Part shown: piece after piece, positions 10,249 to 30,492 of the stretch | Layout of the letters: each line of letters begins with the position of its first letter | Position numbering within the stretch: the first letter of the stretch is position 1 | Source of the DNA: Flavobacteriia bacterium | GTDB taxonomy: Bacteria > Bacteroidota > Bacteroidia > Flavobacteriales_D > Crocinitomicaceae | Assembly (NCBI GenBank): GCA_947458955.1 | Contig: CANGZT010000006.1 | Coordinates: 1 to 44,049, forward strand | DNA: 44,049 nucleotides | Reading direction: 5' to 3' | The notes under the pieces: model-generated | What the model saw: only the letters and a program-made list of their open reading frames with translations | What the model was told of the DNA's origin: nothing | Databases searched by the model: none | Position numbers and translations under genes: made by a program

Positions 10249-10250
10249 AA

Positions 10251-10799: not shown

Positions 10800-10833
10800 T
10801 AAAAAATGAGTTACGATATCAATCATAACTCAT
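10800..10833 (-). terminator. Rho-independent terminator after yajC
   Basis: A 12-bp inverted repeat has arms at 10822-10833 and 10806-10817 (ATGAGTTATGAT read on the minus strand) with a 4-base loop. On the minus strand it is followed by six T (10805-10800). Its single imperfect pair is G-U on the minus strand and C-A on the plus strand, so it terminates minus-strand transcripts. It ends the leucine dehydrogenase-nusB-DUF1573-yajC run. Confidence 0.72.
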
Positions 10834-10847
10834 AATTTATAATTCAA

Positions 10848-11117: not shown

Positions 11118-11142
11118 CTTTTTTGGGTTTATATTTATTAAA

Positions 11143-11541
11143 TTATTTACGAGTTACGTTTGCCTTGATTTGCATAATTGTCAACGAAGGTTCCGTATTG
11201 GCAATCATACGAACTTCTTTTGTTAACATACCTTCTGCTGCATTGTCTGTTCTCACAGTAGCAGTAATTTGTTCTGTTTCTCCTGGTTCAATAGGTTCTT
11301 CTGGGTATTCAGCTACCGTACAAGAACAAGAACCTTTCACTTCTGATATAATTAGTGGGTAATTTCCTGTGTTTTTAACATTGAATACAGCTTCCACTTC
11401 TTCTCCCAAAAGGACCTTACCACCATTGAACACTTTGTTCACTTCTAAAGTAGTTTTTTGTCCCATTTCAAGATTGTCTTTAGAATTACAACCTAATAAA
11501 ACAATACTTGTTAAAGCAAAAAATATTTTTTTCATTTTCAT
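11143..11541 (-). CDS. DUF1573 lipoprotein
   Basis: A 132-residue lipoprotein with signal peptide and lipobox VLLGC (lipidated C18), so it is membrane-anchored in the periplasm. The mature part is a DUF1573 immunoglobulin-like fold: GEEVEAVFNVKNTG, then SEVKGSCSCTVAEYP and an IEPGETEQITATV strand. The CSC motif is characteristic. Function is unknown; the family is common in Bacteroidetes and is often found between nusB and yajC, as here. A second ATG two codons in (MKKIFF) is an equally possible start. Confidence 0.9.
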   Translation of the reverse strand: MKMKKIFFALTSIVLLGCNSKDNLEMGQKTTLEVNKVFNGGKVLLGEEVEAVFNVKNTGNYPLIISEVKGSCSCTVAEYPEEPIEPGETEQITATVRTDNAAEGMLTKEVRMIANTEPSLTIMQIKANVTRK

Positions 11542-11547
11542 TACTTT

Positions 11548-12492
11548 TTATGCTAAACCTCTACCGATTTTTACAATTTTATTGTTTTTTTCTAATTCAA
11601 AGATAGCTTTATCAAGAATACCATTTATAAAACTACTGCTTTTTGGTGTAGAATAAAATTTAGAAATTTCAATGTATTCGTTTAATGTTACTTTTTTAGG
11701 AATATTATTAAAAACTTGTAATTCGGTAATCGCCATTTTCATTAAAATGATATCCATTTTTGCAATACGATCTAATTCCCAGTTTTTTGTAAGTTCATCT
11801 ATCAAGTTTAAATTGTCGTTATCCATTGAAATACATTTACGTAATAATGTTTTTACAAAATACATTTCATCCTCTTCATCTTTGAATAACGGTAGTATAT
11901 CTGCTTCCTGATCTTCTTCGAGACTTTTTATAGTTTTCACAACCATTGAACACATCAAGTCAATATCATCCAACCAGTGAATGCTTTTTTCTTCAAAAAA
12001 GTGATATACCAAAGAAGAATTAGCAATTTCTTGTTTGAATAAAGCTATAGCAAATTCTTTATCTTCTTCAAATGAACGAGTTTCACTGTTCATGTAAGTA
12101 AAGTATAGTTCACTTTCACGGATTTGTGTCATTATTTTTTTGAACATCTCATGATATTCCACTCCAACCCAGTTTACTTTATTTTGTTCTGAAATTAGAC
12201 GAAGTTTACGTGAATCCGAAAGCAATCGAAATACTTTATTTTCTACAAATTTTGTATTGGGATCCAAGTCAGCTTGCGTAGGTCTGATTTTGTTTTTTCC
12301 TTCAACGATTTTTTGTTCTGAAATTTCTCTTAATTCATCAAAGCTCAATAAGAAATAAAGGTAAATGTCATAAATACGATCAATCGAAACTAATAGATCA
12401 GTTTCCACTCTTTTAAAACTATCTTCGTCTGATTGAAAATAAGCATATAATGCTTGTAAAACTTTGATTCTTAAGTGTCTTCTGTTTAACAT
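11548..12492 (-). CDS. nusB: Transcription antitermination factor NusB (long form)
   Basis: A 314-residue protein, more than twice the E. coli NusB length (139). This is the usual long form in Bacteroidetes: an N-terminal extension beginning MLNRRHLRIKVLQALYAYF, and a C-terminal NusB fold with WELDRIAKMDIILMKMAITE and VTLNEYIEISKFYS ending in SSSFINGILD. It binds boxA RNA with NusE (S10) and promotes antitermination in rRNA transcription. It starts 9 bases after the leucine dehydrogenase stop and lies 6 bases before the DUF1573 gene, so it is part of one transcription unit. Confidence 0.95.
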   Translation of the reverse strand: MLNRRHLRIKVLQALYAYFQSDEDSFKRVETDLLVSIDRIYDIYLYFLLSFDELREISEQKIVEGKNKIRPTQADLDPNTKFVENKVFRLLSDSRKLRLISEQNKVNWVGVEYHEMFKKIMTQIRESELYFTYMNSETRSFEEDKEFAIALFKQEIANSSLVYHFFEEKSIHWLDDIDLMCSMVVKTIKSLEEDQEADILPLFKDEEDEMYFVKTLLRKCISMDNDNLNLIDELTKNWELDRIAKMDIILMKMAITELQVFNNIPKKVTLNEYIEISKFYSTPKSSSFINGILDKAIFELEKNNKIVKIGRGLA

Positions 12493-12501
12493 TGTTTCTA
12501 A

Positions 12502-13599
12502 TTATAGGGGTAGTTTAACATTTCCAACAGATTGAATGCGTTCTTCTGCAACTTTATCTGCAATGATATGTGTTGAAATATTTTCTTCTTTTGATCGAGC
12601 TATAATATTTCCTATCGTTTGATAAATATCTTCTGTTTTTTGCATCACCCAATCGTGAGATAAACCCTTCACTTCAGAATAACAACTAATTACACCACCT
12701 GCATTCAATGCGTAATCAGGAGCGTAAATAATTCCTTTGTCTAACAAAGCTTTACCGTGAATGGTATCGATGGCTAATTGGTTGTTTGCAGCTCCAGCAA
12801 TAACACCACATTTTAAACGATTGATTGTATTATCATTTACCGTTGCACCTAGGGCACAAGGAGCATAAACGTCAACGTCTAAATCATAAATTTCGTCTAA
12901 TCCAACAATTGTTGAACCAAATTTAGATTGTATAGACTTTAAATTCTCTTGATTGATGTCTGTGATGAAAACCTGTGCTCCCTCTTCGGAAATATATTTC
13001 ACCAAGTTTTCACCCACGTGTCCAATTCCTTGAACAGCAATTTTTTTACCAGCTAAGCTATCTGTACCATATTGTGCTTTTACAGCCGCTTTCATTCCTA
13101 CATAAACACCGTAAGCCGTCACTGGAGATGGGTCACCACTTTTACCAGGTAAACCAACTACGTGATTTGTTTCCATATTTACATAGGACATATCTGATGG
13201 ATTGATACCAACGTCTTCTGCTGTAATGTATTTACCTCCAAGACTTTCAACGAATTTACCGAATCTTCTGAATAAAGCTTCCGATTTCATTGTTTTTGAA
13301 TCGCCGATAATTACTGCTTTTCCACCACCAAGATTTAATCCTGAAATTGAATTTTTATAGGTCATTCCTCGTGATAAACGAAGAACGTCATTTAATGCTT
13401 CCGTTTCGTTGTTGTACATCCACATTCTTGTCCCTCCCAAGGCTGGACCTAAAATGGTATTGTGAACGGCGATAATTGCTTTTAATCCTGTAGCATTATC
13501 ATTACAAAACAACAACTGCTCGTGGTTGTATTTTGTCATTGGAGTTATAACCGGGTTTTCAACCAGGTTCATTTCACTAATATCTCTAACTTCAAACAT
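12502..13599 (-). CDS. Leucine dehydrogenase (Glu/Leu/Phe/Val dehydrogenase family)
   Basis: A 365-residue NAD-dependent amino acid dehydrogenase that deaminates branched-chain amino acids reversibly. The substrate domain has GPALGGTRMW, the MTYKNSISGLNLGGGKAVI block with K82 and catalytic K94, and the AEDVG motif. The Rossmann domain has VQGIGHVGENL. Sequence and length fit leucine dehydrogenase rather than glutamate dehydrogenase. A TTG three bases upstream could extend it by one codon, but the ATG at 13599 is preferred. It is divergent from the ABC exporter, an arrangement often seen in Flavobacteriia. With the MCC-like carboxylase at the left end it would fit leucine catabolism, though the two are not linked. 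Confidence 0.93.
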   Translation of the reverse strand: MFEVRDISEMNLVENPVITPMTKYNHEQLLFCNDNATGLKAIIAVHNTILGPALGGTRMWMYNNETEALNDVLRLSRGMTYKNSISGLNLGGGKAVIIGDSKTMKSEALFRRFGKFVESLGGKYITAEDVGINPSDMSYVNMETNHVVGLPGKSGDPSPVTAYGVYVGMKAAVKAQYGTDSLAGKKIAVQGIGHVGENLVKYISEEGAQVFITDINQENLKSIQSKFGSTIVGLDEIYDLDVDVYAPCALGATVNDNTINRLKCGVIAGAANNQLAIDTIHGKALLDKGIIYAPDYALNAGGVISCYSEVKGLSHDWVMQKTEDIYQTIGNIIARSKEENISTHIIADKVAEERIQSVGNVKLPL

Positions 13600-13663
13600 C
13601 AACTCAAATTTGTAAGAACGTAAATTATTTTAAAGCACTAAACGAATAATGAATTCTATCAAT

Positions 13664-13671
13664 TAGTTTTG
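13664..13671 (+). promoter_or_regulatory. -7 promoter box upstream of the ABC exporter
   Basis: TAGTTTTG fits the TAnnTTTG consensus 19 bases before the ATG at 13691, a normal distance for a short flavobacterial leader. No TTTG stands at the -33 distance. The 91-base gap with the divergent leucine dehydrogenase must hold promoters for both genes. Confidence 0.45.
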
Positions 13672-13690
13672 CAAAAATAGGAATTAAACA

Positions 13691-15442
13691 ATGAAGTCAC
13701 TAAACTACCTCAATAAATATTTATATAAATACAAAGGACGCTTATTATTAGGTGTTTTGTTCATTTGTTTTTCGAACTATTTCGGCGTTGAAATGCCCAA
13801 GGTCGTTAAAAATGCAGTCAATGATTTCTTGGGAGAATTGAATCATACCAACGATTTTCAATCGATATTAATGTTGAGTCTGAAATTAGCAGGAATATAT
13901 ATGTTGTTTTCTCTGCTAAAAGGATTTTTCTTGTTTTTGACTCGTCAAACCATCATTATCATGTCTCGATTAATCGAGTATGATTTGAAAAACGAAATCT
14001 ATGACCAGTACCAAAAATTAGATTATACCTTTTATAAAAAGAATAATACAGGCGATTTAATGAATCGAATTTCTGAAGATGTTGGCCAAGTTAGACAATA
14101 TTTAGGTCCAGGTTTAATGTACACAATAAATCTTGCGATACTTTCAATTATGGCTATTTACACGATGATGAAAATAAATGTCGGTCTGACTTTAATTGCT
14201 TTGGCTCCTCTACCAATTATGTCTATATTGATTTACAAAGTTTCAAGTAAAATGAATGCATTGAGTAAGTTCGTACAACAGGAACAATCGATGCTTTCTA
14301 CAATTGTGCAAGAAACGTTTTCTGGTATTCGTGTGATAAAGGCCTATTTACGAGAGTTAGAAATGCAATCTCGATTTGAGGAGTCGTCCAATGCGTTTAA
14401 AGATAAAACGATGAAACAAGTCAAGATAAACGCCTTATTTATGCCCACGATAGTCTTTTTGATTGGATTGAGTACGTTATTGGCGATTTATTATGGTGGA
14501 TTGTTAACCTATGAGAAAATCATTACCCCAGGTGATATTGTTGCATTTATCTTTTACATTAATATGTTAACCTGGCCTTTTGCAAGTGTAGGGTGGGTAA
14601 CTTCTATTATTCAGCGTGCTTCTGCTTCCCAAGAACGTATCAATGAATTTTTGAAAATCACACCCGAAATTCAAAATGTATCCACGGAAAAATTAGAAGA
14701 TATTGAGCAAATTGAATTTAAAAACGTTTCATATCAATATGCAGAAAATCTTCCTATGGTGTTGAAAAACATTTCGTTTAAAGTGAAAAAAGGAGAGAAA
14801 ATTGGATTTATTGGACGAACGGGTAGTGGTAAATCTACGTTATTACATTTGGTGATGCGTCAAATTGACCCAACAATCGGAGAAGTGGTCTTAAATGGGA
14901 AATCTTTAAAAACCTCTAATTTAGAACTTTACAGACAGATGTCAGGAGTAGTTCCGCAAGAGGTGTTTTTATTTTCAGATACGATTAAAAATAACATATC
15001 TTTTGGTAAAATTGACGGGGAGGTAACTGAAAAAGAATTAATTGAGGTTACAACAAAAGCGCACGTACTCCATAATATTGAAGCTTTTCCGAATAAATTT
15101 GAAACCTTGTTAGGGGAAAGAGGGGTAAATTTGAGTGGAGGTCAAAAACAACGTATTAGTATCGCTCGCGCTTTAATTCGTAAACCAAAATTATTGGTGT
15201 TAGATGACTGTTTATCTGCTGTGGATACTGAAACGGAAGATGTTATTTTGCATGGAATTGCCGAATCTACCGAGGATCAAATCACCGTAATTGTCAGCCA
15301 TCGAATTTCTTCTTTGCGTTTTGTAGATCGCATTTATGTTATCGAAGATGGAGAAATCAAAGAACAAGGTTCACAAGCTGAATTACTTGCCCTCAGAGGA
15401 ATTTATGCAGATATGTATGAAAAACAATTATTAGAAGAATAA
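13691..15442 (+). CDS. ABC transporter, fused permease and ATPase (MsbA/BmrA-like exporter)
   Basis: A 583-residue half-transporter. Residues 1 to about 325 hold six transmembrane helices of the type I exporter fold, with the typical DYTFYKKNNTGDLMNRISED coupling region. Residues 340-583 form the nucleotide-binding domain with Walker A GRTGSGKST (K381), signature LSGGQKQR (from residue 481), Walker B LLVLDD, a D-loop CLSAVD and the H-loop VSHR. It acts as a homodimer or heterodimer to export lipids, drugs or peptides; the substrate is not predictable. The catalytic acidic residue after Walker B is Asp rather than the usual Glu (LVLDDCLSAVD), which may lower activity unless paired with another half. 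Confidence 0.93.
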   Translation: MKSLNYLNKYLYKYKGRLLLGVLFICFSNYFGVEMPKVVKNAVNDFLGELNHTNDFQSILMLSLKLAGIYMLFSLLKGFFLFLTRQTIIIMSRLIEYDLKNEIYDQYQKLDYTFYKKNNTGDLMNRISEDVGQVRQYLGPGLMYTINLAILSIMAIYTMMKINVGLTLIALAPLPIMSILIYKVSSKMNALSKFVQQEQSMLSTIVQETFSGIRVIKAYLRELEMQSRFEESSNAFKDKTMKQVKINALFMPTIVFLIGLSTLLAIYYGGLLTYEKIITPGDIVAFIFYINMLTWPFASVGWVTSIIQRASASQERINEFLKITPEIQNVSTEKLEDIEQIEFKNVSYQYAENLPMVLKNISFKVKKGEKIGFIGRTGSGKSTLLHLVMRQIDPTIGEVVLNGKSLKTSNLELYRQMSGVVPQEVFLFSDTIKNNISFGKIDGEVTEKELIEVTTKAHVLHNIEAFPNKFETLLGERGVNLSGGQKQRISIARALIRKPKLLVLDDCLSAVDTETEDVILHGIAESTEDQITVIVSHRISSLRFVDRIYVIEDGEIKEQGSQAELLALRGIYADMYEKQLLEE

Positions 15443-15515
15443 TTTAACTATATGATTTCTTAGATTGTAAAAGTTTAACTTAATATGAGGTACTACATCA
15501 ATCTATAAAACTTCT

Positions 15516-15523
15516 TATCTTTA
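15516..15523 (+). promoter_or_regulatory. Possible -7 box upstream of proS
   Basis: TATCTTTA differs from TAnnTTTG only in the last base and lies 21 bases before the proS ATG. It is the best candidate in the 102-base gap after the ABC exporter; no hairpin is seen there. Confidence 0.3.
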
Positions 15524-15544
15524 CAATTCTCAAAATTTAAATGT

Positions 15545-17020
15545 ATGTCAAATAAACTGACTTCTCGCACTGAAGATTACTCAAAATGGTATAATGAATT
15601 GGTAGGTCGTGCTGATTTAGCAGAACATTCAGATGTTCGTGGATGTATGATAATCAAACCTTATGGCTTTGCTATATGGGAAAACATGAAAGATGTTTTA
15701 GATCTTAAATTTAAGGAAACAGGACATTCAAACGCTTATTTTCCTTTATTTATACCTAAGTCCTTTTTGAGTAAGGAAGCGAATCATGTGGATGGTTTTG
15801 CAAAAGAGTGTGCAGTAGTTACGCATTATAGACTTAAAAATGGTGAGAATGGCGAAGGAGTAATCGTTGATCCAGATGCTAAATTGGAGGAAGAATTAAT
15901 TGTAAGACCTACTTCAGAAACGATCATTTGGAATTCATACAAAAATTGGATTCAATCATACAGAGATTTACCAATTCTTATAAACCAATGGGCAAATGTT
16001 GTTCGTTGGGAAATGAGAACACGTTTGTTTTTAAGAACAACAGAGTTTTTATGGCAAGAAGGACATACAGCACACGCTACTAAAGCAGAAGCAATTGAAG
16101 AGGCAGAGAAAATGTTAGATGTATATACTGATTTTGTGGAAAATTACATGGCAATGCCTGTGATTCGCGGTTATAAATCAGAAAGTGAGCGTTTTGCTGG
16201 TGCTGATGAAACCTACTGCATTGAAGCAATGATGCAAGATGGAAAAGCATTACAAGCTGGAACTTCTCATTTTTTAGGTCAAAACTTTGCAAAAGCATTT
16301 GATGTTAAATACGCAGACAAAGAAGGTAAATTAGAACATGTTTGGGCTACATCTTGGGGAGTTTCAACGCGTTTGATGGGTGCTTTAATTATGACGCATT
16401 CTGATGATGAAGGTTTGGTATTACCTCCAAAAATAGCTCCTTTACATGTGGTTATTGTACCTATTTATAAAACAGATGAAGAAAGAAAAGCTATTGGAGA
16501 AAAGGCAGATGAGCTAATAAAGCAATTTAAATCGTTAGGAATAAGAGTTAAATTTGATGATGATGATAATCGTAGACCGGGTTGGAAATTTGCAGAATAT
16601 GAGATGAAGGGTGTTCCGGTTCGTATCGCTATAGGTCCTCGCGATTTAGCAGCAGGAAATGTAGAGTTAGCTCGAAGAGATACCAAGGAAAAAACAGTTG
16701 TTTCAGCAGAAGGTTTAGATGTTTATGTTAAGCAATTATTAGATGATATTCAATCGAGTTTGTTAAATAAAGCAAAAGCATTTCGTAAAGCAAACATACA
16801 TACGGTTGATACTTATGAAGATTTCAAAAAACAATTAGAAGAAAAAGGTGGTTTTTTCTTGGTTCACTGGGATGGAACGAAAGAAACAGAAGAAAAAATC
16901 AAACAGGAAACACAAGCAACAATTCGTTGTATTCCTCTTGATGCACCAATTGAAGAAGGGGTTTGTATGGTTACCGGAAAACCTTCAACAAAAAGAGTAA
17001 TTATTGCTAAAGCATATTAA
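15545..17020 (+). CDS. proS: Prolyl-tRNA synthetase, short (archaeal/eukaryotic-like) form
   Basis: A 491-residue class II synthetase that charges tRNA-Pro. Motif 2 is seen around [27 protein letters not shown], split here as RWEMRTR and [10 protein letters not shown]. Motif 3 is [12 protein letters not shown]. The anticodon-binding domain begins near LHVVIVPIY, and the C-terminus ends in a conserved Tyr (IIAKAY). The absence of the INS editing insertion and the ending Tyr identify the archaeal/eukaryotic-like ProS found in Bacteroidetes. The next gene starts one base after its stop, so they are co-transcribed. An ATG four bases upstream is out of frame and quickly closed. Confidence 0.96.
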
Positions 17021-17021
17021 T

Positions 17022-17720
17022 ATGACACAATTAGAGGGTATTTTATTGAATTTATTGCATGATAAAGCTTTATTAAAGCAAGAGGTGATTGGTGGTGCAC
17101 ATGAAAAATTTAATATGTTTAAAAAGTTAATGGCTGAAGAAGTTAAAAACTTAGGAAGTAAGTTAACTGATAAACGTATTCGTATGCAGTTTATCGATAA
17201 AGGAATCAATGAATGTCATGTTATGGCTGGAAGTGACGCTCTAGTTTTTCATCTACATACAAATGTGTTTACATTACCTTCAGAACACCCTTTTTGGAAA
17301 CACAATTACCTGAAAAAAGATTTTTCTAAAGGTTATTTTGGTGTAATTTATATCTACAACTTTTTAGCGAAATCAATTATCCAACAACATTTGGATGATG
17401 GAGGTGGTTTAATAGCTCGAATTTTTATAAACAAAGAAGGTGCTTTTTTTATAGAGGGTAGCCAACAAATTGCTGAAAAGTATTTGAGGTTAGGTAGACA
17501 CAAGTTTAATGAGAAAACAGCTAAAGAGATTTTTCTTCTAACTTCAATCAGTGCTGTTGATGTAGATTTAACGATTCCGAATTATGAAGAGGTAAATGCA
17601 ATATCAGTTGAACAATTACAAGAAATCAGCTCAAATTTAGGAATTCATACTGCAAAAAAATTAGGTTTTCAGTTACCTAACCATAATGAAATCTCTCATT
17701 TTGAGGATGAATTTGAATAA
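17022..17720 (+). CDS. Conserved protein of unknown function, coupled to proS
   Basis: I do not recognise a named family. The 232-residue protein is soluble, without signal peptide or membrane helix. It begins with a helical region (LEGILLNLLHDKALLKQEVIGG), followed by a predicted alpha/beta domain with MAGSDALVFHLHTNVFTLP, GYFGVIYIYNFLA, a DDGGGLIARIFINKEGAFFI strand pair, and an acidic C-terminus (HFEDEFE). The ATG chosen lies one base after the proS stop; the frame could extend six codons into proS, but that lacks support. The tight spacing implies co-translation with the synthetase. The DGGGLIARIFI beta-hairpin might bind a ligand, but nothing proves a function. Confidence 0.8.
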   Translation: MTQLEGILLNLLHDKALLKQEVIGGAHEKFNMFKKLMAEEVKNLGSKLTDKRIRMQFIDKGINECHVMAGSDALVFHLHTNVFTLPSEHPFWKHNYLKKDFSKGYFGVIYIYNFLAKSIIQQHLDDGGGLIARIFINKEGAFFIEGSQQIAEKYLRLGRHKFNEKTAKEIFLLTSISAVDVDLTIPNYEEVNAISVEQLQEISSNLGIHTAKKLGFQLPNHNEISHFEDEFE

Positions 17721-17765
17721 GGAATAAATATTTGTGTCAAAAAGTTTATTTTTTTTAAATAAATA

Positions 17766-17796
17766 TTTGCAAAAAGAGAAAAAACATCTATATTTG
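17766..17796 (+). promoter_or_regulatory. Full Bacteroidetes promoter for the tRNA-Glu genes
   Basis: TTTG (17766-17769), 19 bases, then TATATTTG (17789-17796) matches exactly the -33 TTTG, N19, -7 TAnnTTTG promoter of Bacteroidetes. The first tRNA begins 35 bases after the box. This is the only complete consensus promoter I found in the window, as expected for a stable-RNA gene. Confidence 0.82.
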
Positions 17797-17831
17797 CAAA
17801 CCGAAAATAAGAACACGTTCTTTTATTTCAC

Positions 17832-17906
17832 GGCCCATTCGTCTAGTGGTCAGGACGCCAGGTTTTCATCCTGGAAACAGGAGTTCGATTCTCCTATGGG
17901 CTGCCA
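17832..17906 (+). tRNA. tRNA-Glu (anticodon TTC), copy 1, CCA encoded
   Basis: The cloverleaf is complete. The acceptor pairs GGCCCAT with ATGGGCT, the D arm is GTCTAGTGGTCAGGAC, the anticodon stem is CCAGG/CCTGG around loop TTTTCAT with anticodon TTC, and the T arm is AGGAG-TTCGATT-CTCCT. Discriminator G is at 17903, followed by a genome-encoded CCA at 17904-17906. It reads GAA and, by wobble, GAG. Confidence 0.97.
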
Positions 17907-17913
17907 AATTTTT

Positions 17914-17985
17914 GGCCCATTCGTCTAGTGGTCAGGACGCCAGGTTTTCATCCTGGAAACAGGAGTTCGATTCTCCTATGGGCTG
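17914..17985 (+). tRNA. tRNA-Glu (anticodon TTC), copy 2, no encoded CCA
   Basis: All 72 bases are identical to copy 1, with starts 82 bases apart. After discriminator G (17985) the sequence reads CAAG, so the CCA end must be added by nucleotidyltransferase. It is a recent tandem duplication or a copy kept identical by gene conversion. It shares the upstream promoter and lies 37 bases before rpsT. Confidence 0.97.
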
Positions 17986-18022
17986 CAAGTTTTTAACTTA
18001 AATTAATTTAATATAAATTATT

Positions 18023-18274
18023 ATGGCTAATCATAAGTCTGCACAAAAAAGAATAAGATCTAACGAGTCTAAAAAACTACGTAACAAATACCAACACAAA
18101 ACTACTCGTAATGCTGTTCGTAAATTACGTTCATTAACTGACAAATCGGAAGCACAAACATTGTTTGTTAGTGTATCTTCATTGTTAGATAAATTAGCTA
18201 AGAAAAACATAATTCATGCTAACAAAGCAGCTAATTTAAAGTCTGGTTTAGCGGTTAAAATTAACAAATTGTAA
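18023..18274 (+). CDS. rpsT: 30S ribosomal protein S20
   Basis: An 83-residue, strongly basic helical protein beginning [22 protein letters not shown], the standard S20 start. It has a central [25 protein letters not shown] helix pair and a [14 protein letters not shown] end. It binds 16S rRNA near the 5' domain. It follows the tRNA-Glu pair with a 37-base gap and may be transcribed from the same promoter. A rho-independent terminator follows. Confidence 0.97.
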
Positions 18275-18295
18275 AATTATTTGTAATTTATATTG

Positions 18296-18324
18296 AAAGG
18301 CTGTCTATTAGATAGCCTTTTTTT
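18296..18324 (+). terminator. Rho-independent terminator after rpsT
   Basis: The stem AAAGGCTGTCT / AGATAGCCTTT has a 3-base loop and is followed by a run of T to 18324. One pair is G-U on the plus strand. It ends the tRNA-Glu/rpsT unit; the porin gene starts 15 bases later. Confidence 0.82.
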
Positions 18325-18339
18325 ATTTGATTTATTTTA

Positions 18340-20076
18340 ATGCGATTACTCATAACAATATTAATTATGACCCTGTTTTTTGAGCCTATTCAGGCGCAAG
18401 AGTCATATTTACATAGGGTAATAGATACTATTAAAATATCTACAAGGATGGGGGGGTATAAGTTAGATTCTATAGATCTAATTTATACTGAAAAGTATAT
18501 TACTACTCCTAGTTCTTTCCATTCGCATCCTTTTGGGAAATTTGGAAATGACTATTTTTCATTTTTTGCAAATCAATTCAAACAAAATAGAATATTGCAA
18601 AATCCCGTTTTTCGATATACTGCTTTACCGCATTTAGGAGCTCATTATGGATTTGGAAGTAAAGGAACTCAATATTTGGTTGTAAACTATGATCAAAGTT
18701 TTTCTATCAAGACACATTTTACCCTGTCATATACTCGAAATGTGGCAACTGGTGCCTTTCGTTTTAATGCATTTGCAAACGATCTTTTTTCTATAGGAGT
18801 TATTCATAATGGTGATCATTGGTCTCATTCAGTTTCAGCAACAACATTCAAACAACATCGAAATTTAAGCGGAGGAGTGTCTTCTTTTGATGAAATAATT
18901 AAATATGGTCTTGACTTTGCTAAGGTAAGAAAACAAAATACCTCCGATTCTTTAACTCAGTTGAATATAAATACCGAAACTCAGTATAAGATTCAAAAAA
19001 AAGAGTCTTTAAATTATTTATCATTCGTCTTTAATAATAAGTTAAATATCGACAAACGAGTATTCAGAGAACAAGATTCATTAACGATTTGGTATCCAGG
19101 TCAAATTTTATTTGATACAACAAAAACGAGGGATTTGACTCAATTATCACGAATTGATAATCAATTTGGAGTTTTATATAAAAAACATGGATTTACATCT
19201 ACATTTTTAATAGATAAAGGCTATTGGATTTATAAAACGTTCTCTCAGCAAATACGAAATGAATTAGATTTTATAGCAAAATTTAATTTTAAAAAAGAAT
19301 CTTGGTTATTTGAGTCTAAAAATCAATTAAATATAGTTGGAGCAAATAATCAATCAAGTTTTTTTCTCTTCTTAAGTAAAAAAGGAGAAAAGTGTGATTT
19401 TTCATTAAATATAAATCAAACGAATCTTTTACCAACCCCAATGCAACGTGTATACATAACAAATACATTGAGTTATGTATTAGATGAGTTAAAATTACAA
19501 CATATACAAACTGCAAAACTTGAATTTAAACTTAAGACTAAACAAGCCTTCCATTTTTCAATATTCGGTGGGAATTTCAAAAATCAATATTATTTCCTTA
19601 AAAATAGATGGAGAAATGATACCTTGAGAAATGTATCCCAATTATCTGTTCAAATTAAAGGGGATTTAAATTATAAAATGGTGCATTTACAACCTAACCT
19701 AACAATTAATTTTATTGATAAGGTACAATTGATTCCAAAATATGATTTAAGAGCTCGACTTTTTTTATCTAAAGAATTAAAAAGAAAAGGTACATTAATA
19801 AATATTGGAACAGATTTTAATTATAAATCAACGTATCAGTTGATGACCTTTGATGATCGAATTTCTTTGTATAAAATGGATTATCAAAACAGTTACTTTT
19901 TGGATTATATGAATATTGACGCCTATATTTCAATGCAAATGGACGAGTTTAGAATGTATTTCAAAATGGAGAACATTGATAATTATTGGAATTTACCTAA
20001 TGCAAGTTTTGTTAAAAATTATCCTACATCTCCTGTAATTATGCGTTTAGGTTTAACTTGGGATTTTTTCAATTAA
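18340..20076 (+). CDS. Putative outer-membrane porin (Porin_10-like beta-barrel)
   Basis: A 578-residue exported protein with a signal peptide cleaved after IQAQ. The mature part consists of alternating strands with many aromatic residues, and it ends MRLGLTWDFFN, an aromatic C-terminal strand as expected for insertion by BamA. Blocks such as NDYFSFFANQFKQN, FRYTALPHLGAHYGFGSKG and the closing MYFKMENIDNYWNLPNASF resemble the putative porin family (PF14121) of Bacteroidetes. Pore function is inferred. A run of seven G at 18450-18456, within codon 37 onward, may be a slippage site. The last 8 bases overlap the end of the convergent lpxL-like gene. Confidence 0.82.
   Translation: MRLLITILIMTLFFEPIQAQESYLHRVIDTIKISTRMGGYKLDSIDLIYTEKYITTPSSFHSHPFGKFGNDYFSFFANQFKQNRILQNPVFRYTALPHLGAHYGFGSKGTQYLVVNYDQSFSIKTHFTLSYTRNVATGAFRFNAFANDLFSIGVIHNGDHWSHSVSATTFKQHRNLSGGVSSFDEIIKYGLDFAKVRKQNTSDSLTQLNINTETQYKIQKKESLNYLSFVFNNKLNIDKRVFREQDSLTIWYPGQILFDTTKTRDLTQLSRIDNQFGVLYKKHGFTSTFLIDKGYWIYKTFSQQIRNELDFIAKFNFKKESWLFESKNQLNIVGANNQSSFFLFLSKKGEKCDFSLNINQTNLLPTPMQRVYITNTLSYVLDELKLQHIQTAKLEFKLKTKQAFHFSIFGGNFKNQYYFLKNRWRNDTLRNVSQLSVQIKGDLNYKMVHLQPNLTINFIDKVQLIPKYDLRARLFLSKELKRKGTLINIGTDFNYKSTYQLMTFDDRISLYKMDYQNSYFLDYMNIDAYISMQMDEFRMYFKMENIDNYWNLPNASFVKNYPTSPVIMRLGLTWDFFN
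18450..18456 (+). repeat. Homopolymer G7 tract inside the porin gene
   Basis: Seven consecutive G in an A/T-rich genome, encoding the end of Met37 and Gly-Gly. The reading frame is intact at this length. A change by one base would truncate the porin after about 40 residues. It is a candidate for phase variation, but the tract is short. Confidence 0.6.
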
Positions 20077-22367: not shown

Positions 22368-23021
22368 ATGAAAAACATAGTTTATAATTTTCTTTTAATT
22401 AACATATTAATATTTGTTTCTTCATGTTCTACTTCAAATGAAGTTAGTCAAAATTCACGTTTACAAAAAAGAAAATATACTAACGGTTTTTATATTTCAT
22501 CACTTCACAAGAATAGAAAAAAAGAGATTTTTCCTAACGAAACCATTGAAAATAATGAGTTGATTGCAGTAGAAAAAACTACTGAAACTGAAAACACGAT
22601 CGCTTCTATTGATCATAATTTTGTTCCTCAAGAAAGTCCAAAATCTATGTCAGAAATCGAAGAAAAGGATATTAAAATAGATTATCAATTCAAAAAACAT
22701 ACCCCTGAAACATCGTCATTTTCTGAGTATAAACAAGAAGATTTTAGTCACAATAAAGTGAAATGGTTAAGAAATAACGAGGTTAAAAAGCTTTATTTTA
22801 AAAACACAAAGAAAGAAAAATCGCAAAAATCAAAAAAAGTTAATGATGAACAATTAATTTTTATTTTATTAATGGTATTGGCATTTTTACTGCCACCTCT
22901 ATCTGTTTTATTATTTACTAATATTGACTGGAAAAAAGTACTCATTGCAACAATTCTAACTTGTTTGTGGTGGGGGCCAGGGGTTTTGTATGCGATTTTA
23001 GTATTATTAGAAATTTTATAA
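22368..23021 (+). CDS. Lipoprotein with C-terminal YqaE/Pmp3 membrane domain
   Basis: A 217-residue protein with an unusual layout. It starts with a lipoprotein signal peptide (lipobox FVSSC, C20), followed by about 140 residues of hydrophilic, Lys/Glu-rich, probably disordered sequence. The last 50 residues form two membrane helices of the Pmp3/YqaE family: LAFLLPPLSVLLFTN, then IATILTCLWWGPGVLYAIL. Pmp3 proteins are normally about 52 residues and are linked to membrane potential and salt stress. If the lipobox is used, the protein is anchored at both ends, with the linker in the periplasm. The next gene starts 15 bases downstream and is also a lipoprotein. Confidence 0.8.
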   Translation: MKNIVYNFLLINILIFVSSCSTSNEVSQNSRLQKRKYTNGFYISSLHKNRKKEIFPNETIENNELIAVEKTTETENTIASIDHNFVPQESPKSMSEIEEKDIKIDYQFKKHTPETSSFSEYKQEDFSHNKVKWLRNNEVKKLYFKNTKKEKSQKSKKVNDEQLIFILLMVLAFLLPPLSVLLFTNIDWKKVLIATILTCLWWGPGVLYAILVLLEIL

Positions 23022-24220: not shown

Positions 24221-25537
24221 GTGAAATCTGGTAAAAAATTTGGTTTATACACAGCTATTATGATTGTTATTGCAAACATGGTAGGTACAGGTGTGTTTAC
24301 AAGTTTGGGGTTTCAAGTAATAGGTATAAAATCTGGTTCAGCGATTTTATTACTTTGGTTTATTGGGGGATTGATCTCATTTTTTGGTGCGTATTCCTAT
24401 GCAATTTTAGGATCTTTTTATAAAAAAAATGGGGGAGAATACCTTTTTCTTAAATCTGCATATTCTGAACAATTAGGTTTTTTGTCGGGTTGGATATCAT
24501 TTTTACTTGGCTTTGCTGCTCCTATTGCATTGGCTTGTTTTGGGTTTAGTTCTTATTTTTCAGGTATGCTTCATACAGATGAAAACTCTCACATACTTGG
24601 TATCCCATTAACTGATTTATATTCGGTTATAATTTTAGTTTGTATTACTCTAATGCACTCTTACAGTCATAAGGTGAGTGCATGGTTTCAAAATGTACTT
24701 TCAAGTCTAAAAATTTTAATACTAGTAATATTGATTTTGATAGGTTTTTCAATTGATCAAAAAACAGAAGTGAATTTTCATATTGACAATCATTTTATTG
24801 GTAATATATGGAATAAAGCCTTTGTTGTTTGTTTATTTTGGGTTACTTACGCGTATTCTGGTTGGAATGCAGCGGCATACATTGGTGGTGAAGTACGAAA
24901 TCCAAAAAAGAATTTACCTCTTGCTTTAATCGTAGGTACTGGAACAGTTTCAATTTTATATATACTGTTGAATTATGTTTTTCTCAAACATATACCTATA
25001 AGCGAAATGGCTGGTAAATTAGATATAGGGATCATTTATGCAGATAAGATTTTAGGAACTGTATGGGGGAGAGTATTTGGTGGTATTATTGCATTTTTGC
25101 TTTTATCAAGTATTTCAAGCATGGTACTAGCTGGTCCGAGAGTGACTAATGCTGTAGCTAAAGATTTTCCAAAATTGAATTGGTTTAGTCAAGAAAACGA
25201 GGCCGGAATACCTAAAAGAGCATTATGGATTCAAGCTTTAATTGTAATGATTTTTGTATTGACTTCTGGTTTTGAAAGTTTGATTACTATGATCGGATTT
25301 GTATTAAATTTATTTACAATGCTAACTGTAATTGGTTCAATTAGAGTTGGTTTGAGGATTAAAAAAGTAAGTGGGTTAGTTAATAAGTTTGTTTTTCCTA
25401 CTTTTCCTATTATTTTCTTAGCATTTCAGTCTTGGATATTGTGTTTTGGTTTGTATTCCAAAACGAAAGAATCATTAATTGGATTAGGTATAACCCTAAT
25501 CGGAATACCGGTTTACAAATGGGTAAAAAAGGATTAA
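24221..25537 (+). CDS. APC-superfamily amino acid permease
   Basis: A 438-residue transporter with about 12 hydrophobic segments. It opens with a GTG start and KSGKKFGLYTAIMIVIANMVGTGVFTSLG; the GTGVF unwound part of TM1 is the APC hallmark. TM6 contains FWVTYAYSGWNAAAYIGGEVRNPKKNLP, the other substrate-site helix (split here as AYSGWNAA and GGEVRNPKKNLP). The closest type is the LAT-like or basic APC permease; the amino acid cannot be predicted. Its end overlaps the serine hydrolase gene by 19 bases. Confidence 0.9.
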   Translation: MKSGKKFGLYTAIMIVIANMVGTGVFTSLGFQVIGIKSGSAILLLWFIGGLISFFGAYSYAILGSFYKKNGGEYLFLKSAYSEQLGFLSGWISFLLGFAAPIALACFGFSSYFSGMLHTDENSHILGIPLTDLYSVIILVCITLMHSYSHKVSAWFQNVLSSLKILILVILILIGFSIDQKTEVNFHIDNHFIGNIWNKAFVVCLFWVTYAYSGWNAAAYIGGEVRNPKKNLPLALIVGTGTVSILYILLNYVFLKHIPISEMAGKLDIGIIYADKILGTVWGRVFGGIIAFLLLSSISSMVLAGPRVTNAVAKDFPKLNWFSQENEAGIPKRALWIQALIVMIFVLTSGFESLITMIGFVLNLFTMLTVIGSIRVGLRIKKVSGLVNKFVFPTFPIIFLAFQSWILCFGLYSKTKESLIGLGITLIGIPVYKWVKKD

Positions 25538-26805
25538 AAACGATATTTTTTTTGTTTTTGAGTGGGTTGATTTTTGCTCAAAATAAAACATCAGTCATGA
25601 AGGCTCCGGAGTTATTACAGACTGTGCTTGACTCCCTTTCTTTGAAATATCCAGATGTTATTAAATCCCCTGAAAAGTATAAGTTTAAACTTGTTTTTAC
25701 GCAAATTAATCGTTCTAAAACACAAGTTGCAATTGAAACTGTTTCATTTAGAGAAGATCAGAAGGAATATTTATATCCAGCGAGTATCGTTAAATTACCT
25801 GCTGCTTTAATTGCCTTGGAGGAATTAAATGAAGTGAGAAAGAAAAGTCCAAATGCATCAATAAATAACACCATCAAGTTTTTTCAAAAAAAAGGGTGTT
25901 TACCTACTGCAAATCAAATCAAGATTGGAAATAGAATGTATCCGACAAGTTTAGATGTATTGATAAAGATGATGTTGGCTGTTTCGGATAACGATGCTTA
26001 TAATCGAGTATTTGATTTTTGTGGACAACAAAGAATCAATTCACGAATTAAAGAATTAGGTTTTAAAGAAGGGAAGATTATAAGAAAGTTTGTATTAAAT
26101 TGCAATTTGAATCAAAATAGAATAAGCGACTCATTGGTGATGTTTGGCAAAAGAGGAGAGCGTGTATATACCCGAGGAACTATCATTAATAATGATTCTA
26201 TTTCTGTTGATTCTACGTACAAATTAGGTCTTCAATATGAAGGGTTTAATAAGCAAATAATTAATAAACCTTTTGATTTTTCCAAACAAAATAACTTGGA
26301 TTTATTAGATATTCATAAAACTTTAGCAGGTTTAATTTTCCCAAAAAGTAATTCTAATTATAAATTTAACATTACCGAAGAACAACGAAAATATATATTA
26401 CAAAATTTAGGTAGGTATCCAGATGAATATGGCTTAGCATATAATTCATTAGAATTTTTTCCAACCTATAAAAAATATTTGTTATTCGGTCGAGATCCGA
26501 AGTTGAATTATTTAAATGATTCTTTGAATCGTTTTCGTTCATTGAATATTGTGGGGGTGTCATTTGGTTGTGTTATAGATTGTGCTTATTTGATAGATTT
26601 TCAAACAGGTAAGGAGTTTTTATTGACAGTTGGGATGTACGCGAACCAAGATGAGGTAATTAATGATGCAAAATATGACTATGATAGTTTAGCTTACCCG
26701 TTTATGAAAGACGCTGGTCGATTATTCATGAATTTATTACCAGAAAATCCAGAAGCAATTCCTTACCTTGAAAATTTTGGAAAAGAGATGGATTTTAGGA
26801 AATAA
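25519..26805 (+). CDS. Exported serine hydrolase, class A beta-lactamase-like fold
   Basis: A 428-residue exported protein. The ATG at 25519 gives a signal peptide ending LIFAQ; the frame extends upstream into the permease but lacks support. The catalytic S-x-x-K is S89-I-V-K92 in YPASIVKLPAAL, and an SDN motif is S156-D157-N158 in LAVSDNDAYN. No KTG is visible at the third position: the matching stretch NIVGVSFG has no lysine. This fits the Beta-lactamase2-like family of Bacteroidetes serine hydrolases, whose members are probably not drug-hydrolysing beta-lactamases. A peptidoglycan-peptide substrate is a reasonable guess, with the coupled permease taking up the product, but this is inference. 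Confidence 0.82.
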   Translation: MGKKGLKTIFFLFLSGLIFAQNKTSVMKAPELLQTVLDSLSLKYPDVIKSPEKYKFKLVFTQINRSKTQVAIETVSFREDQKEYLYPASIVKLPAALIALEELNEVRKKSPNASINNTIKFFQKKGCLPTANQIKIGNRMYPTSLDVLIKMMLAVSDNDAYNRVFDFCGQQRINSRIKELGFKEGKIIRKFVLNCNLNQNRISDSLVMFGKRGERVYTRGTIINNDSISVDSTYKLGLQYEGFNKQIINKPFDFSKQNNLDLLDIHKTLAGLIFPKSNSNYKFNITEEQRKYILQNLGRYPDEYGLAYNSLEFFPTYKKYLLFGRDPKLNYLNDSLNRFRSLNIVGVSFGCVIDCAYLIDFQTGKEFLLTVGMYANQDEVINDAKYDYDSLAYPFMKDAGRLFMNLLPENPEAIPYLENFGKEMDFRK

Positions 26806-26898: not shown

Positions 26899-27405
26899 AT
26901 GGAAAAAGTACGTTTGATAAAAATTGGGAGTGCATTTGATAATGATGTTGTTATCAATGATGAATCTATTGCTCCTTATCATTTGGAATTATTTCAAGAC
27001 CAGCTTGGAAAGGTATTTCTTTCTGATTTAAATTCAACTTCTGGAACTTATATAAATGGCCAACGTGTTCAACAATTTATTCGTTTGACATTTACAGATA
27101 AAGTAACCGTTGCTGGTAAATTTATGTTTGATTGGATAAAGTTGACTAAAATTCAAGATATTAGTCAGAAGATCGAAGACTCAACAGCTAATTGGTTATA
27201 TTCAGAGAATAGAATGAATTCGGTTTATCTACCCCTTCAAGAAGACATGCAAAACACATTAGGGGTTGATGATTATGAACTTGCGGAGGATGCGAGTTGG
27301 AGTGAAAAATGGAAATACTTTTACACAAATCACGCTTCAATTGTTCATATCTTTGCTTTAAATATAGTGCTGTTTATACTGTTCTATTTGGCATTTCTTT
27401 CTTAA
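26899..27405 (+). CDS. FHA-like domain protein with C-terminal membrane anchor
   Basis: A 168-residue protein. Residues 1-90 form a forkhead-associated fold: LIKIGSAFDNDVVIND, then IAPYHLEL, then LSDLNSTSGTYINGQRV. The middle (90-140) is a linker, and the C-terminus (about 145-168, IFALNIVLFILFYLAFLS) is a single membrane helix, giving a tail-anchored protein with the FHA in the cytoplasm. The usual phosphothreonine contacts are altered: the GR arginine is S11, the VS serine is A25 and the STNG asparagine is S48, while H28 and N53 remain. Binding to phosphothreonine is therefore doubtful. It lies 38 bases before the PP2C-like/LysM gene and probably works with it. Confidence 0.85.
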   Translation: MEKVRLIKIGSAFDNDVVINDESIAPYHLELFQDQLGKVFLSDLNSTSGTYINGQRVQQFIRLTFTDKVTVAGKFMFDWIKLTKIQDISQKIEDSTANWLYSENRMNSVYLPLQEDMQNTLGVDDYELAEDASWSEKWKYFYTNHASIVHIFALNIVLFILFYLAFLS

Positions 27406-27443
27406 ATTTACCTCTTTTTGTTGAGTTAAATTCTTTATTAAAA

Positions 27444-28766
27444 ATGAAAGTTTCTTATTGTTCAAAAACTGATTTAGGAACCAAATATCCTGTTAACACA
27501 GATGCATTGGGAGACAAAAGCACTCGAAACGGACATGTTTTTGTTGTGGCTGATGGACAACCTTTTGATCAAAATGGTTCTTTTGCTTCTAAATTGGCAG
27601 TACAAAGTGTATTAGATTTTTTTGATAAAGAACAATTTGATAATATTTACATAGGTATTAATCACGCTTTTCAATTTGTAAATGAACAAGTTTATAGAGC
27701 TACGATTTCAAATGAAAACCTTAAAGGTGCATATGTTTCTTTAGCTTTGGTATTAGTTAGACCAGAGGGTGCTTACTATGGACATGTAGGAAATGCAAGA
27801 GTTGCTATTCAATCAGATGATCAATTAACGCTATTGACAAAAGATCATGGTTTTTTAGATGTTCAACCATATCAAGTTGGTAGTAGTTCTTCTAGAATTG
27901 TTAAAGCAATTGGTAATACTCCAAGTGTTTATCCAACTGTATGCAATGAACCTATATTAGGTACTCAAGGAGATGTAATTTTATTAGCAACAAATGGTCT
28001 TTTCAAATCATTTAATTTAGATCAATTAAATGAAAGTTTTGATTATTCAACAATAAATAAAGATATTGTTAGTCTTGTAGACAAGGCAAAAGGTTCTGGT
28101 TCAGCTGAAAATTTAACTTTGCAATTAATTGCTGTTACTGAAGGAAATCGTTTGAAATCAATTTCTCAAGCTAGAGTAACAACTAATACAATTAAGGATG
28201 ATCACTCTTCAGAAGAAATTAAAAATAATATGTTTAACCTCGCTGGGATGGAACGTAAGCGTATCATTCAAGTAGGTGCCATTTTGATTGCTTTTTTCCT
28301 GGTGATTTGGTTTGTTTTTAGAACACCAAAAGATGATACTGATTTAGTTTTAGATGATGCAGGAGAAGTGGTTAAAGCTGATACTACAAATCCTAATCAG
28401 GATTTAGAGAGTATGATGGAATATGATACTCCTAAAGAAAAAGTAGAGGAAGAAAAAGTAGAGGAGGAAGAGGAAGAAAGTAATACGGAGACTGAGGAAG
28501 AAACAGATTCTCAGGAAGTGGAACAAAGTGCTGATTCTGAAGTGAAAACTGAAGCTAGTTCAAACGAGCCTAAAAAAGAAGAAAAGAAAGAAACTAAGAA
28601 AGAGGAATCTAAAAGTTCTAAGGGTGGTTCTCATGTTGTTAAATCAGGTGATAATCTTGGTAAAATTGCTGAAAAATACCATGTTAAGATTGATGCGCTC
28701 AAAAAGGCCAATAATATTAAAGATGATCAAATAAATATAGGCCAAGAACTAAAAATACCAAATTAA
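27444..28766 (+). CDS. PP2C-like domain, membrane helix and LysM fusion protein
   Basis: A 440-residue membrane protein. Residues 1-235 have the PP2C fold (VFVVADGQ, YYGHVGNAR, GDVILLATNGLF, SAENLTLQL), then a helix at about 274-292 (IIQVGAILIAFFLVIWF), a long Glu/Lys/Ser-rich linker, and a C-terminal LysM domain (HVVKSGDNLGKIAEKY to INIGQELKIP). The PP2C part is cytoplasmic and the LysM is periplasmic. Only the first metal aspartate is kept (D37). The others are N117 (usually GDSR), N184 (usually SDG or TDG) and E222 (usually DN), so phosphatase activity is unlikely. The frame reaches 27309 inside the FHA gene, but the ATG at 27444 starts at MKVSYCSKTDLG, a PP2C-type N-terminus. A terminator follows. 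Confidence 0.85.
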   Translation: MKVSYCSKTDLGTKYPVNTDALGDKSTRNGHVFVVADGQPFDQNGSFASKLAVQSVLDFFDKEQFDNIYIGINHAFQFVNEQVYRATISNENLKGAYVSLALVLVRPEGAYYGHVGNARVAIQSDDQLTLLTKDHGFLDVQPYQVGSSSSRIVKAIGNTPSVYPTVCNEPILGTQGDVILLATNGLFKSFNLDQLNESFDYSTINKDIVSLVDKAKGSGSAENLTLQLIAVTEGNRLKSISQARVTTNTIKDDHSSEEIKNNMFNLAGMERKRIIQVGAILIAFFLVIWFVFRTPKDDTDLVLDDAGEVVKADTTNPNQDLESMMEYDTPKEKVEEEKVEEEEEESNTETEEETDSQEVEQSADSEVKTEASSNEPKKEEKKETKKEESKSSKGGSHVVKSGDNLGKIAEKYHVKIDALKKANNIKDDQINIGQELKIPN

Positions 28767-28785: not shown

Positions 28786-28824
28786 GATGCTTCAAAGGAT
28801 GTTTCTTTTGAAGCATCTTTTTTT
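28786..28824 (+). terminator. Strong rho-independent terminator before the CAT-type permease gene
   Basis: An 11-bp perfect stem has arms at 28786-28796 (GATGCTTCAAA) and 28807-28817 (TTTGAAGCATC) with a 10-base loop and T7 at 28818-28824. It ends the FHA/PP2C-like unit but stops only three bases before the next ATG. It may therefore also act as an attenuator or as part of the leader. Confidence 0.85.
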
Positions 28825-28827: not shown

Positions 28828-30492
28828 ATGTTCAATCAACTTGTAAGAAAAAAAACATTAACTCAAATCGAGAAAGATGTTGCATTGAATAATGCTAATC
28901 CTAAGTTGGGTAAACATTTGAAGCTTAAAGACTTGACCTCTCTGGGTATCGCTGCAATAATTGGTGCGGGAATCTTTAGTACGATCGGAAATGCTAGTTT
29001 TTCAGGTGGACCTGCCGTGATTTTTTTATTTCTATTTACTGCAATCGCTTGTGGATTTGCCGCGTTTGCTTATGCAGAATTTGCCGCCCTTGTTCCTGTT
29101 TCAGGTAGTGCTTATACATATGCTTATGTTGCTTTTGGTGAGCTTGTAGCATGGATCATTGGTTGGGCATTGATTATGGAATATGCTGTTGGAAATATAA
29201 CGGTTGCAATTTCCTGGAGTGATTATTTCACTTCCTTACTTTCCAGGATGGGGTTTGACATTCCTGCTTGGATTCAAATAGATTATTTGTCTGCTAAAAA
29301 AGGTTTTTTAGAAGTGATTTTATTGAAAAATAAAGATTTGAAAATAGGGTCAAATGATATGATTGCTTTTGAAGCTTGGCAAAATGCACCGCAATTTTTT
29401 GGTTTACGCATAATAGGTGATTTACCAGCGTTATTCATAATTTTTTTAATTACCTTTTTAGTTTACAAAGGAATAAAAGAATCTAAATATGCCAGTAATA
29501 TTATGGTATTGATAAAATTGCTAATTATTTTTTTAGTATTAATTGTAGGGGTATTTTATATAGATACCAATAATTGGAACCCATTTTCTCCAAATGGAGT
29601 TGGCGGTATTTTAAAGGGTGTTTCTGCTGTTTTTTTTGCATACATAGGTTTTGATGCTATTTCAACAACCGCTGAAGAATGTGAAAATCCCAAAAAAGAT
29701 TTACCTCGAGCAATGATGTGGTCTATAATAGTGTGTACGATTTTGTATATTTTGATTGCCTTGGTTCTGACAGGAATGGTTAAATATGACACATTGAATG
29801 TTGGTGACCCACTGGCTTTTGTTTTTGAAAAATTAAATATTCATTGGATGTCAGGTATAATTGCTGTTAGTGCTGTAATTGCTATGACTAGCGTTTTGTT
29901 GGTTTTTCAAATGGGGCAGCCTAGGATATGGATGTCAATGAGTCGAGATGGATTACTTCCACCGGCATTTTCTAAAATACACCCTAAATTTAAAACACCT
30001 TCTTTTGCAACAATTATAACGGGGTTTATTGTTGGTATACCTGCCTTATTTATGAATTTAACAATGGTAACAGATCTTTGTAGTATTGGAACTTTGTTTG
30101 CATTTGTTTTAGTTTGTGGTGGAGTAGTGGTACTGCACGGTAGAAAGAAAGAACCTGTTAAACCAATTATCACTCCTTTTATCGATGCTAAAAAGATACT
30201 AGTTATATTATTTAGTGTTCTACTTAGTCTTTTTCATTTTTATTTTAGTTGGAAAGATATACCATATTCATTAATTATTTTATCCATAACAATTTTAATC
30301 TTTATTGGGTTATCTTTTTTTTATAAATTATCTGCAATACCTCTTCTAGGTTTATTGAGTTGCTTTTATATGATGACAGAATTAAATATCTCAAATTGGA
30401 TTGGTTTTGGGATATGGATGATTCTTGGGTTAGCTGTTTATTTTGCTTACGGTGTTAAAAATAGTCGTTTAAAACAAGAGAAAAAAGTCTGA
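28828..30492 (+). CDS. Cationic amino acid transporter-like APC permease
   Basis: A 554-residue permease with 12 or more hydrophobic segments. The N-terminus MFNQLVRKKTLTQIEKD and HLKLKDLTSLGIAAIIGAGIF are typical of the CAT branch of the APC superfamily, with the GAGIF site in TM1. TM6 has FFAYIGFDAISTTAEECENPKKDLPRA (split here as FAYIGFDAISTTAEE and NPKKDLPRA), the CAT signature. Substrates are probably cationic or neutral amino acids. The N-terminal match supports the ATG at 28828 even though it lies three bases after the preceding terminator and leaves no room for a normal leader; an unseen promoter in the hairpin, or read-through, must supply its mRNA. Confidence 0.9.
   Translation: MFNQLVRKKTLTQIEKDVALNNANPKLGKHLKLKDLTSLGIAAIIGAGIFSTIGNASFSGGPAVIFLFLFTAIACGFAAFAYAEFAALVPVSGSAYTYAYVAFGELVAWIIGWALIMEYAVGNITVAISWSDYFTSLLSRMGFDIPAWIQIDYLSAKKGFLEVILLKNKDLKIGSNDMIAFEAWQNAPQFFGLRIIGDLPALFIIFLITFLVYKGIKESKYASNIMVLIKLLIIFLVLIVGVFYIDTNNWNPFSPNGVGGILKGVSAVFFAYIGFDAISTTAEECENPKKDLPRAMMWSIIVCTILYILIALVLTGMVKYDTLNVGDPLAFVFEKLNIHWMSGIIAVSAVIAMTSVLLVFQMGQPRIWMSMSRDGLLPPAFSKIHPKFKTPSFATIITGFIVGIPALFMNLTMVTDLCSIGTLFAFVLVCGGVVVLHGRKKEPVKPIITPFIDAKKILVILFSVLLSLFHFYFSWKDIPYSLIILSITILIFIGLSFFYKLSAIPLLGLLSCFYMMTELNISNWIGFGIWMILGLAVYFAYGVKNSRLKQEKKV

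Follow-up and report, generated by a model that had tools for sequence, protein, structure and literature searches.

In mycobacteria, the genes of a phospho-signalling module lie in the order fhaB-pstP-pknA-pknB; kinase, phosphatase and reader are all active there, and the phosphatase, PstP, is not known to have a LysM domain. FHA domains that read phosphothreonine contact the phosphopeptide through an arginine, a serine and an asparagine, and phosphatases of the PP2C (or PPM) type bind their metals through the aspartates of motifs 2, 5, 8 and 11. Each half of the arrangement described below has a precedent outside these active systems, the FHA domain of SctD for one and the PP2C folds of TAB1 and PHLPP2 for the other, but none was found for the pair in the literature searched. 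An excerpt of PMC4045390 holds that the cytoplasmic FHA domains of SctD likely work without phosphorylation, and in excerpts of PMC12002173 a scaffold role is proposed for PHLPP. The literature on bacterial and Bacteroidetes pseudophosphatases contained no bacterial PP2C pseudophosphatase among the matches listed; a search for LysM, PP2C and FHA in Bacteroidetes gave no match, and one for flavobacterial FHA/PP2C/kinase gene clusters matched a single paper, whose subject is type VI secretion in the symbiont of a squid.

We analysed a stretch of 44,049 nucleotides (the window) from Flavobacteriia bacterium, family Crocinitomicaceae (assembly GCA_947458955.1, contig CANGZT010000006.1, positions 1 to 44,049), in which an FHA gene and a PP2C gene, both degenerate, stand side by side (Table 1). 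The locus deserves attention because an eraser and a reader that appear to have lost phosphate handling are nevertheless kept together, and intact relatives in sister genera are available for comparison. An earlier note on this DNA, made from its letters and open reading frames, had described the two genes as encoding an FHA-like protein with a C-terminal membrane helix and a PP2C-like protein with a membrane helix and a LysM domain; coordinates, Pfam and predicted helices all agree with that description.

Table 1. Features of the locus, with positions numbered along the window and residues numbered along each protein.
Feature	Position	Strand	Description and basis
Degenerate FHA gene	26899..27405	+	168 aa; ORF, Pfam, hydropathy scan, fold model
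FHA protein, parts			FHA domain, residues 7-69; poorly predicted linker, 86-125; C-terminal membrane helix, 148-166
Degenerate PP2C-TM-linker-LysM gene	27444..28766	+	440 aa; ORF, orthologues, Pfam, fold model
PP2C protein, parts			PP2C domain, residues ~1-235; helix, 274-292; linker, ~293-396; LysM, 397-439
Terminator-like hairpin and T run	28786..28824	+	14 pairs, stem 28786-28817; between PP2C and permease genes
Amino-acid permease gene	28828..30492	+	Pfam AA_permease_2; constant neighbour downstream of the pair

The two genes are separated by 38 bp; the list of open reading frames places the start of the PP2C gene at 27309, inside the FHA gene, and the ATG adopted in Table 1 is the one that agrees with the orthologues and with the residue numbers given in the earlier note. 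Pfam recognises the FHA domain at 55.8 bits (cut-off 20.7), the PP2C domain as PP2C_2 at 35.5 bits (cut-off 24) and the C-terminal domain of the second protein as LysM at 55.9 bits (cut-off 20.9). By hydropathy scan, the FHA protein has a single hydrophobic helix, which forms its extreme C-terminus, and the PP2C protein has one predicted membrane helix. Immediately after that helix, residues 293-330 of the PP2C protein are well conserved among orthologues; the acidic linker beyond them is, by eye, poorly conserved in the orthologue alignment, although the conservation listing is biased past residue 332, where two rows stop. A motif shared with other proteins was considered for residues 293-338 and rejected, as the segment gave one match per genome in all 13 genomes searched, and always the orthologue itself. 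Segment 293-330 may be a docking site for a partner.

The PP2C fold is retained, as the earlier note had supposed. The model (pLDDT 86, from a 15-row alignment) finds its best matches in the tPphA structures 5d2u and 5iti and in 6ihu (Z 30.1, rmsd 2.0-2.5 Å over 212-213 residues), and it resembles Staphylococcus aureus Stp1 (5f1m; Z 29.5, rmsd 2.1, 217 residues) and PstP (1txo; Z 28.5, rmsd 2.1, 211 residues) almost as closely; together with the Pfam score this places the domain among the PP2C folds. The active site is another matter. At the four metal positions the window protein has D37, N117, N184 and E222, of which one is still aspartate, and in an HMM alignment to solved tPphA these residues fall in the DGMGGH, GDSR, SDG and DN motifs respectively (the A4 profile matches the tPphA sequence at E 1.5e-29). 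Further losses comprise the motif-1 arginine (Y15), the motif-1 glutamate (T19), the histidine (D42) and both glycines, G40 and G41, of DGxGGH, while D20 is retained.

These departures extend across the genus. Among the 13 degenerate PP2Cs, Arg15, Glu19, Gly40 and Gly41 are each absent from every copy and His42 is invariably replaced by aspartate, whereas Asp20 is retained in 10/13. Position 37 is occupied by Asp in ten copies and Glu in three; 117 by Asn in eleven and Ser in two; 184 by His (5), Asn (4), Ser (2), Tyr (1) or Lys (1); and 222 by Glu in ten, Gly in two (genomes G006 and G011) and Asp in one. Hence the aspartates of motifs 2, 5, 8 and 11 that a PP2C enzyme requires are incomplete in the window protein, and all 13 orthologues depart from them at both 117 and 184. 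In contrast, every position compared is canonical in 19/19 intact PP2C homologues, a set that includes two rows (L033, L034) belonging to congeners of the window and one from genome G023 (L032), and that leaves out L135, whose row had picked up a second weak stretch, and L127 and L128, copies that share their genomes with L059 and L060. A class-wide search matched 62 of 395 genomes; in the 29 loci fetched and read besides that of the window, D37, D117 and D184 were kept in all, D222 was kept in each of the 28 that reach this position, and one locus had Ala for His42. Among all loci read, therefore, the degenerate PP2C is confined to the window's genus. The retained D20, D37 and E222 could still hold a metal.

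The FHA protein repeats this pattern on a smaller scale. Its model is of moderate quality (mean pLDDT 70, low over residues 86-125), and its best structural match is EmbR (Z 10.2, rmsd 2.3 Å over 77 residues), with further FHA domains following at Z 8-10; profile and structure thus both identify an FHA fold, retained like that of the PP2C domain. Of the contacts that define a phosphothreonine reader (Arg, Ser, Asn), the window protein has none, carrying S11, A25 and S48 instead, and in an alignment to Rv1747 FHA-2 its S11 falls on the arginine. Throughout the genus the arginine has become serine (13/13) and the contact serine is gone (13/13); the histidine is retained in all 13, and the asparagine of the SxN motif in three, being lost in the other ten. 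All the changed residues listed by the earlier note in both proteins were exact when read again, and alignment with homologues and with the solved structures, tPphA and Rv1747 FHA-2, confirmed the positions assigned to them. Since the losses are genus-wide and the sites are kept in relatives, a canonical phosphatase with phosphothreonine readout is an unlikely role for the pair, as had been proposed, and both proteins have probably lost their activity. Loss of the FHA arginine by itself is not unique, because it is missing from certain FHA domains of intact clusters as well: among the rows read, five have Lys at this position, one has Cys and one Ser, although the FHA domains of FHA-M48 proteins in those clusters keep all four residues (14/14).

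The question of whether the pair is kept together, which had been left to be checked, has a clear answer: each of the 13 congeneric genomes searched, the window's included, contains it with open frames. This agreement across 13 genomes rules out chance or a single faulty assembly. In a family-wide profile search, 38 of 240 genomes gave matches, including the 13 of the window's genus; the residue comparison leaves aside about nine matches from other genera that were weak, partial or second ones. For pairs of genomes with pS below 0.5, dN/dS (Nei-Gojobori) is 0.04-0.12 in the PP2C domain, 0.04-0.13 in the FHA gene and 0.06-0.10 in the permease, which indicates purifying selection and functional genes; it rises to 0.52 in distant pairs, where synonymous sites are near saturation. 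Three copies, those of G006, G011 and G012, have diverged much further, to 35-42% identity in the PP2C domain. Six residues of the PP2C protein (K8, D24, K25, Q77, K154 and P164) are fixed in the degenerate group and variable among intact PP2Cs, and D42 of the PP2C protein and S11 of the FHA protein are likewise fixed; such residues point to a new constraint acting on these sequences and not to free decay. A branch with support 100/100 separates the degenerate from the intact PP2Cs in the tree, although the exact sister of the degenerate group is unsure because long branches meet at this split.

The nearest intact homologues occur in gene clusters of seven other genera. In 16 intact loci (L144-L159) an FHA gene lies immediately upstream of the PP2C gene without exception, and a Ser/Thr kinase gene immediately downstream in 14; of the two exceptions, L152 has its kinase at another place within the cluster and L154 is cut off by the end of its contig. 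Of the 16 loci, 14 contain FHA-M48 genes and 13 contain FHA-ABC genes. The cluster at L144, positions 6647-19001, for example, runs through an FHA protein, a large FHA protein, a PP2C with a membrane helix, a Ser/Thr kinase, an FHA-TM-M48 peptidase, an FHA-FHA-ABC transporter and more kinases; the domains of intact clusters were verified by Pfam on this locus, where the protein labelled vWA_FHA shows FHA only. From gene content, these clusters look like a complete phospho-signalling system of the envelope. Screened against PADLOC, four of seven tested proteins of L144 match, mostly models of kinases or ATPases, which says little.

These clusters also bear on the origin of the pair. LysM exceeds the Pfam cut-off in three of ten intact PP2Cs tested, two of the three barely, and the fusion of PP2C to LysM, while real, need not be new, because kinase-linked PP2Cs with intact sites carry LysM too; LysM as a new fusion is weakened to that extent, which refines the earlier description. 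Three intact clusters further encode an FHA protein of 129-140 aa with a C-terminus that is hydrophobic by eye, the same build as that of the window, and the short tail-anchored FHAs of intact clusters group with the degenerate FHAs at 84/89, on few columns, in a tree from which, for two FHA-M48 proteins, the weak second stretch matching the FHA model was excluded. Since both a PP2C with LysM and a short tail-anchored FHA occur in intact clusters, both builds probably predate the losses. The pair looks like the eraser and the reader of a phospho-signalling module, retained after the phosphate chemistry was lost. In one short tail-anchored FHA from an intact cluster (L151, positions 14573-14962), the phosphate-binding Arg is replaced by Ser and the contact Ser by Thr, which makes it a second, and possibly independent, case of a degenerate FHA.

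No kinase gene adjoins the pair, as had been observed, but kinases are present elsewhere in the genomes. A kinase-domain protein of 423-472 aa, unlinked to the pair, occurs in 12/13, and the eight of these that were read keep the motifs HGDLYAHN and GDFG. Ahead of the kinase domain, these proteins (e.g. L068, L077) have what by eye look like leucine-rich repeats. Several genomes have additional kinase matches, among them the window's own, with one more strong match (G000:C64). G004 and G009 each have an additional, intact PP2C near a kinase; in both (for G009, L034, positions 8946-10553) this PP2C forms a fusion with an M48 peptidase domain (Pfam 68.6 bits), and the kinase adjoins it. The FHA of the pair is the sole FHA match in nine of the 13 genomes, and eleven have no second PP2C profile match. 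Several of the assemblies are incomplete (the window's is 60% complete), but G007, G008, G010 and G012, which are 90-100% complete, belong to both of these sets.

Genes upstream and further downstream of the pair vary between groups of loci, while the permease lies directly 3' of it in every locus where the contig continues (11/11). In G011, a LysM-containing fragment adjoins the permease on another contig. By eye, nine of the eleven loci show a compact hairpin after the PP2C gene, and L054 and L057 have no convincing one; the permease as a co-transcribed partner is weakened by this terminator-like element. Just upstream of the pair, window positions 24221-26805 hold another APC permease and then a beta-lactamase-like serine hydrolase, an order kept in five other loci of the genus (L037-L041) and not in the rest. 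Elsewhere the window contains two tandem tRNA-Glu (TTC) genes (17832-17986) and a 217-aa protein (22368-23021) with a Pmp3-like C-terminal match (Pfam 29.2 bits, cut-off 22.9). At 1e-5, neither the FHA nor the PP2C protein matched any PADLOC model of a described defence system.

We favour, with a probability of roughly 0.55, the view that the two proteins are a conserved pseudo-eraser and pseudo-reader that form a phosphate-independent scaffold at the inner membrane, anchored to peptidoglycan through LysM. The FHA and PP2C domains would both face the cytoplasm at the inner membrane, with LysM in the periplasm; both domains would now serve purely as protein-binding modules, without phosphate, and would probably hold each other or a common partner. 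LysM would grip peptidoglycan by way of the flexible linker of about 100 residues and so hold the PP2C protein to it, and the complex would therefore be positioned by the wall, or report on it. The presence of the pair in every genome of the genus searched suggests that an old signalling pair has taken on a new role as a wall-linked scaffold. A sensory link of the pair to peptidoglycan is offered as a hypothesis, and the neighbouring permease is tentatively a candidate client. A phosphate-free relay, derived from a phospho-relay and signalling across the envelope through protein contact, in which occupancy of peptidoglycan by LysM alters the grip of the two degenerate domains on a membrane client such as the permease, seems to us doubtful. 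If the scaffold reading is true, the locus offers a small system of two genes in which to study the work of phospho-folds without phosphate and the coupling of a wall anchor to the cytoplasm.

Two alternatives would leave some phosphate chemistry in place. The pair might still be linked to phosphorylation as a dominant-negative reader and a substrate trap, competing for or shielding the phospho-targets of the unlinked kinases; these kinases are present in all but one genome, with their motifs kept in the eight read, and substrate trapping is a known mode of pseudophosphatases (PMC10211241, in excerpt), but the residues that contact phosphate are gone, Arg15 from the PP2C domain and both Arg and Ser from the FHA domain, and we hold this to be unlikely. 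Alternatively, the PP2C domain might be alive, with D20, D37, the carbonyl of G38 and E222 binding one or two metals in a slow or altered hydrolase. Retention of D20, D37 (otherwise Glu) and Glu222 in 10/13 each is consistent with this, as is the single metal ion that the pseudophosphatases TAB1 and PHLPP2 retain according to excerpts of PMC12002173; the same excerpts, however, put the requirement of the known PPM phosphatases at two metals or more. One kept metal would not in itself amount to activity. Moreover, position 184 varies between Asn, His, Tyr, Ser and Lys, 117 is Asn or Ser, 222 is Gly in G006 and G011, and Arg15, Glu19, Gly40, Gly41 and His42 are missing throughout, which makes a living enzyme quite improbable.

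It is similarly improbable that the pair is chiefly an accessory of the amino-acid permease, which it would regulate: the adjacency in all 11 readable loci despite varying surroundings, and the LysM-containing fragment beside the permease in G011, speak for such a role, but a terminator-like hairpin intervenes in nine of those loci and the permease also occurs in three other genera (40 genomes searched) in which the pair was not found. The strongly diverged copies of G006, G011 and G012 might be taken to mean that the pair is what remains of a phospho-signalling module in decay and no longer has a function; open frames in every genome, close-pair dN/dS far below 1 and residues fixed within the group disfavour decay and leave it very little credence.

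Compared with known systems, the phosphate-independent scaffold that we favour would combine features otherwise met separately. Like SctD/YscD of type III secretion, the FHA protein of the window is a membrane protein whose FHA fold is degenerate, and it matches Pfam Yop-YscD_cpl at 41.9 bits (cut-off 33.2), a model that canonical FHA domains match too; its helix, in contrast, is the very C-terminus, and Pfam FHA outscores Yop-YscD_cpl. An assignment to SctD was rejected, as two residues follow the predicted helix and there is no periplasmic ring domain; Pfam recognised no type III secretion component among the 17 proteins of the window that were searched with it. With the mycobacterial fhaB-pstP region the locus shares an FHA gene adjoining a PP2C gene, and NCBIfam FhaB scores the window FHA at 39.9 bits, below its cut-off of 125. 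The PP2C domain has the fold of the bacterial phosphatases tPphA, PstP and Stp1 (Z 28.5-30.1, rmsd 2.0-2.5 Å, 211-217 residues), but lacks their metal, motif-1 and histidine residues and adds a membrane helix and LysM. It resembles the eukaryotic pseudophosphatases TAB1 and PHLPP2 in having a PP2C fold whose metal ligands are poorly conserved (PMC12002173, in excerpt), and differs in being bacterial, membrane-bound with LysM, paired with a degenerate FHA and known from sequence. Nearest of all are the kinase/FHA/PP2C clusters of its own family, L144-L159, which contain the closest intact homologues of both proteins, and whose PP2Cs, unlike that of the window, have intact active sites and in 14 of 16 loci a kinase gene directly 3'.
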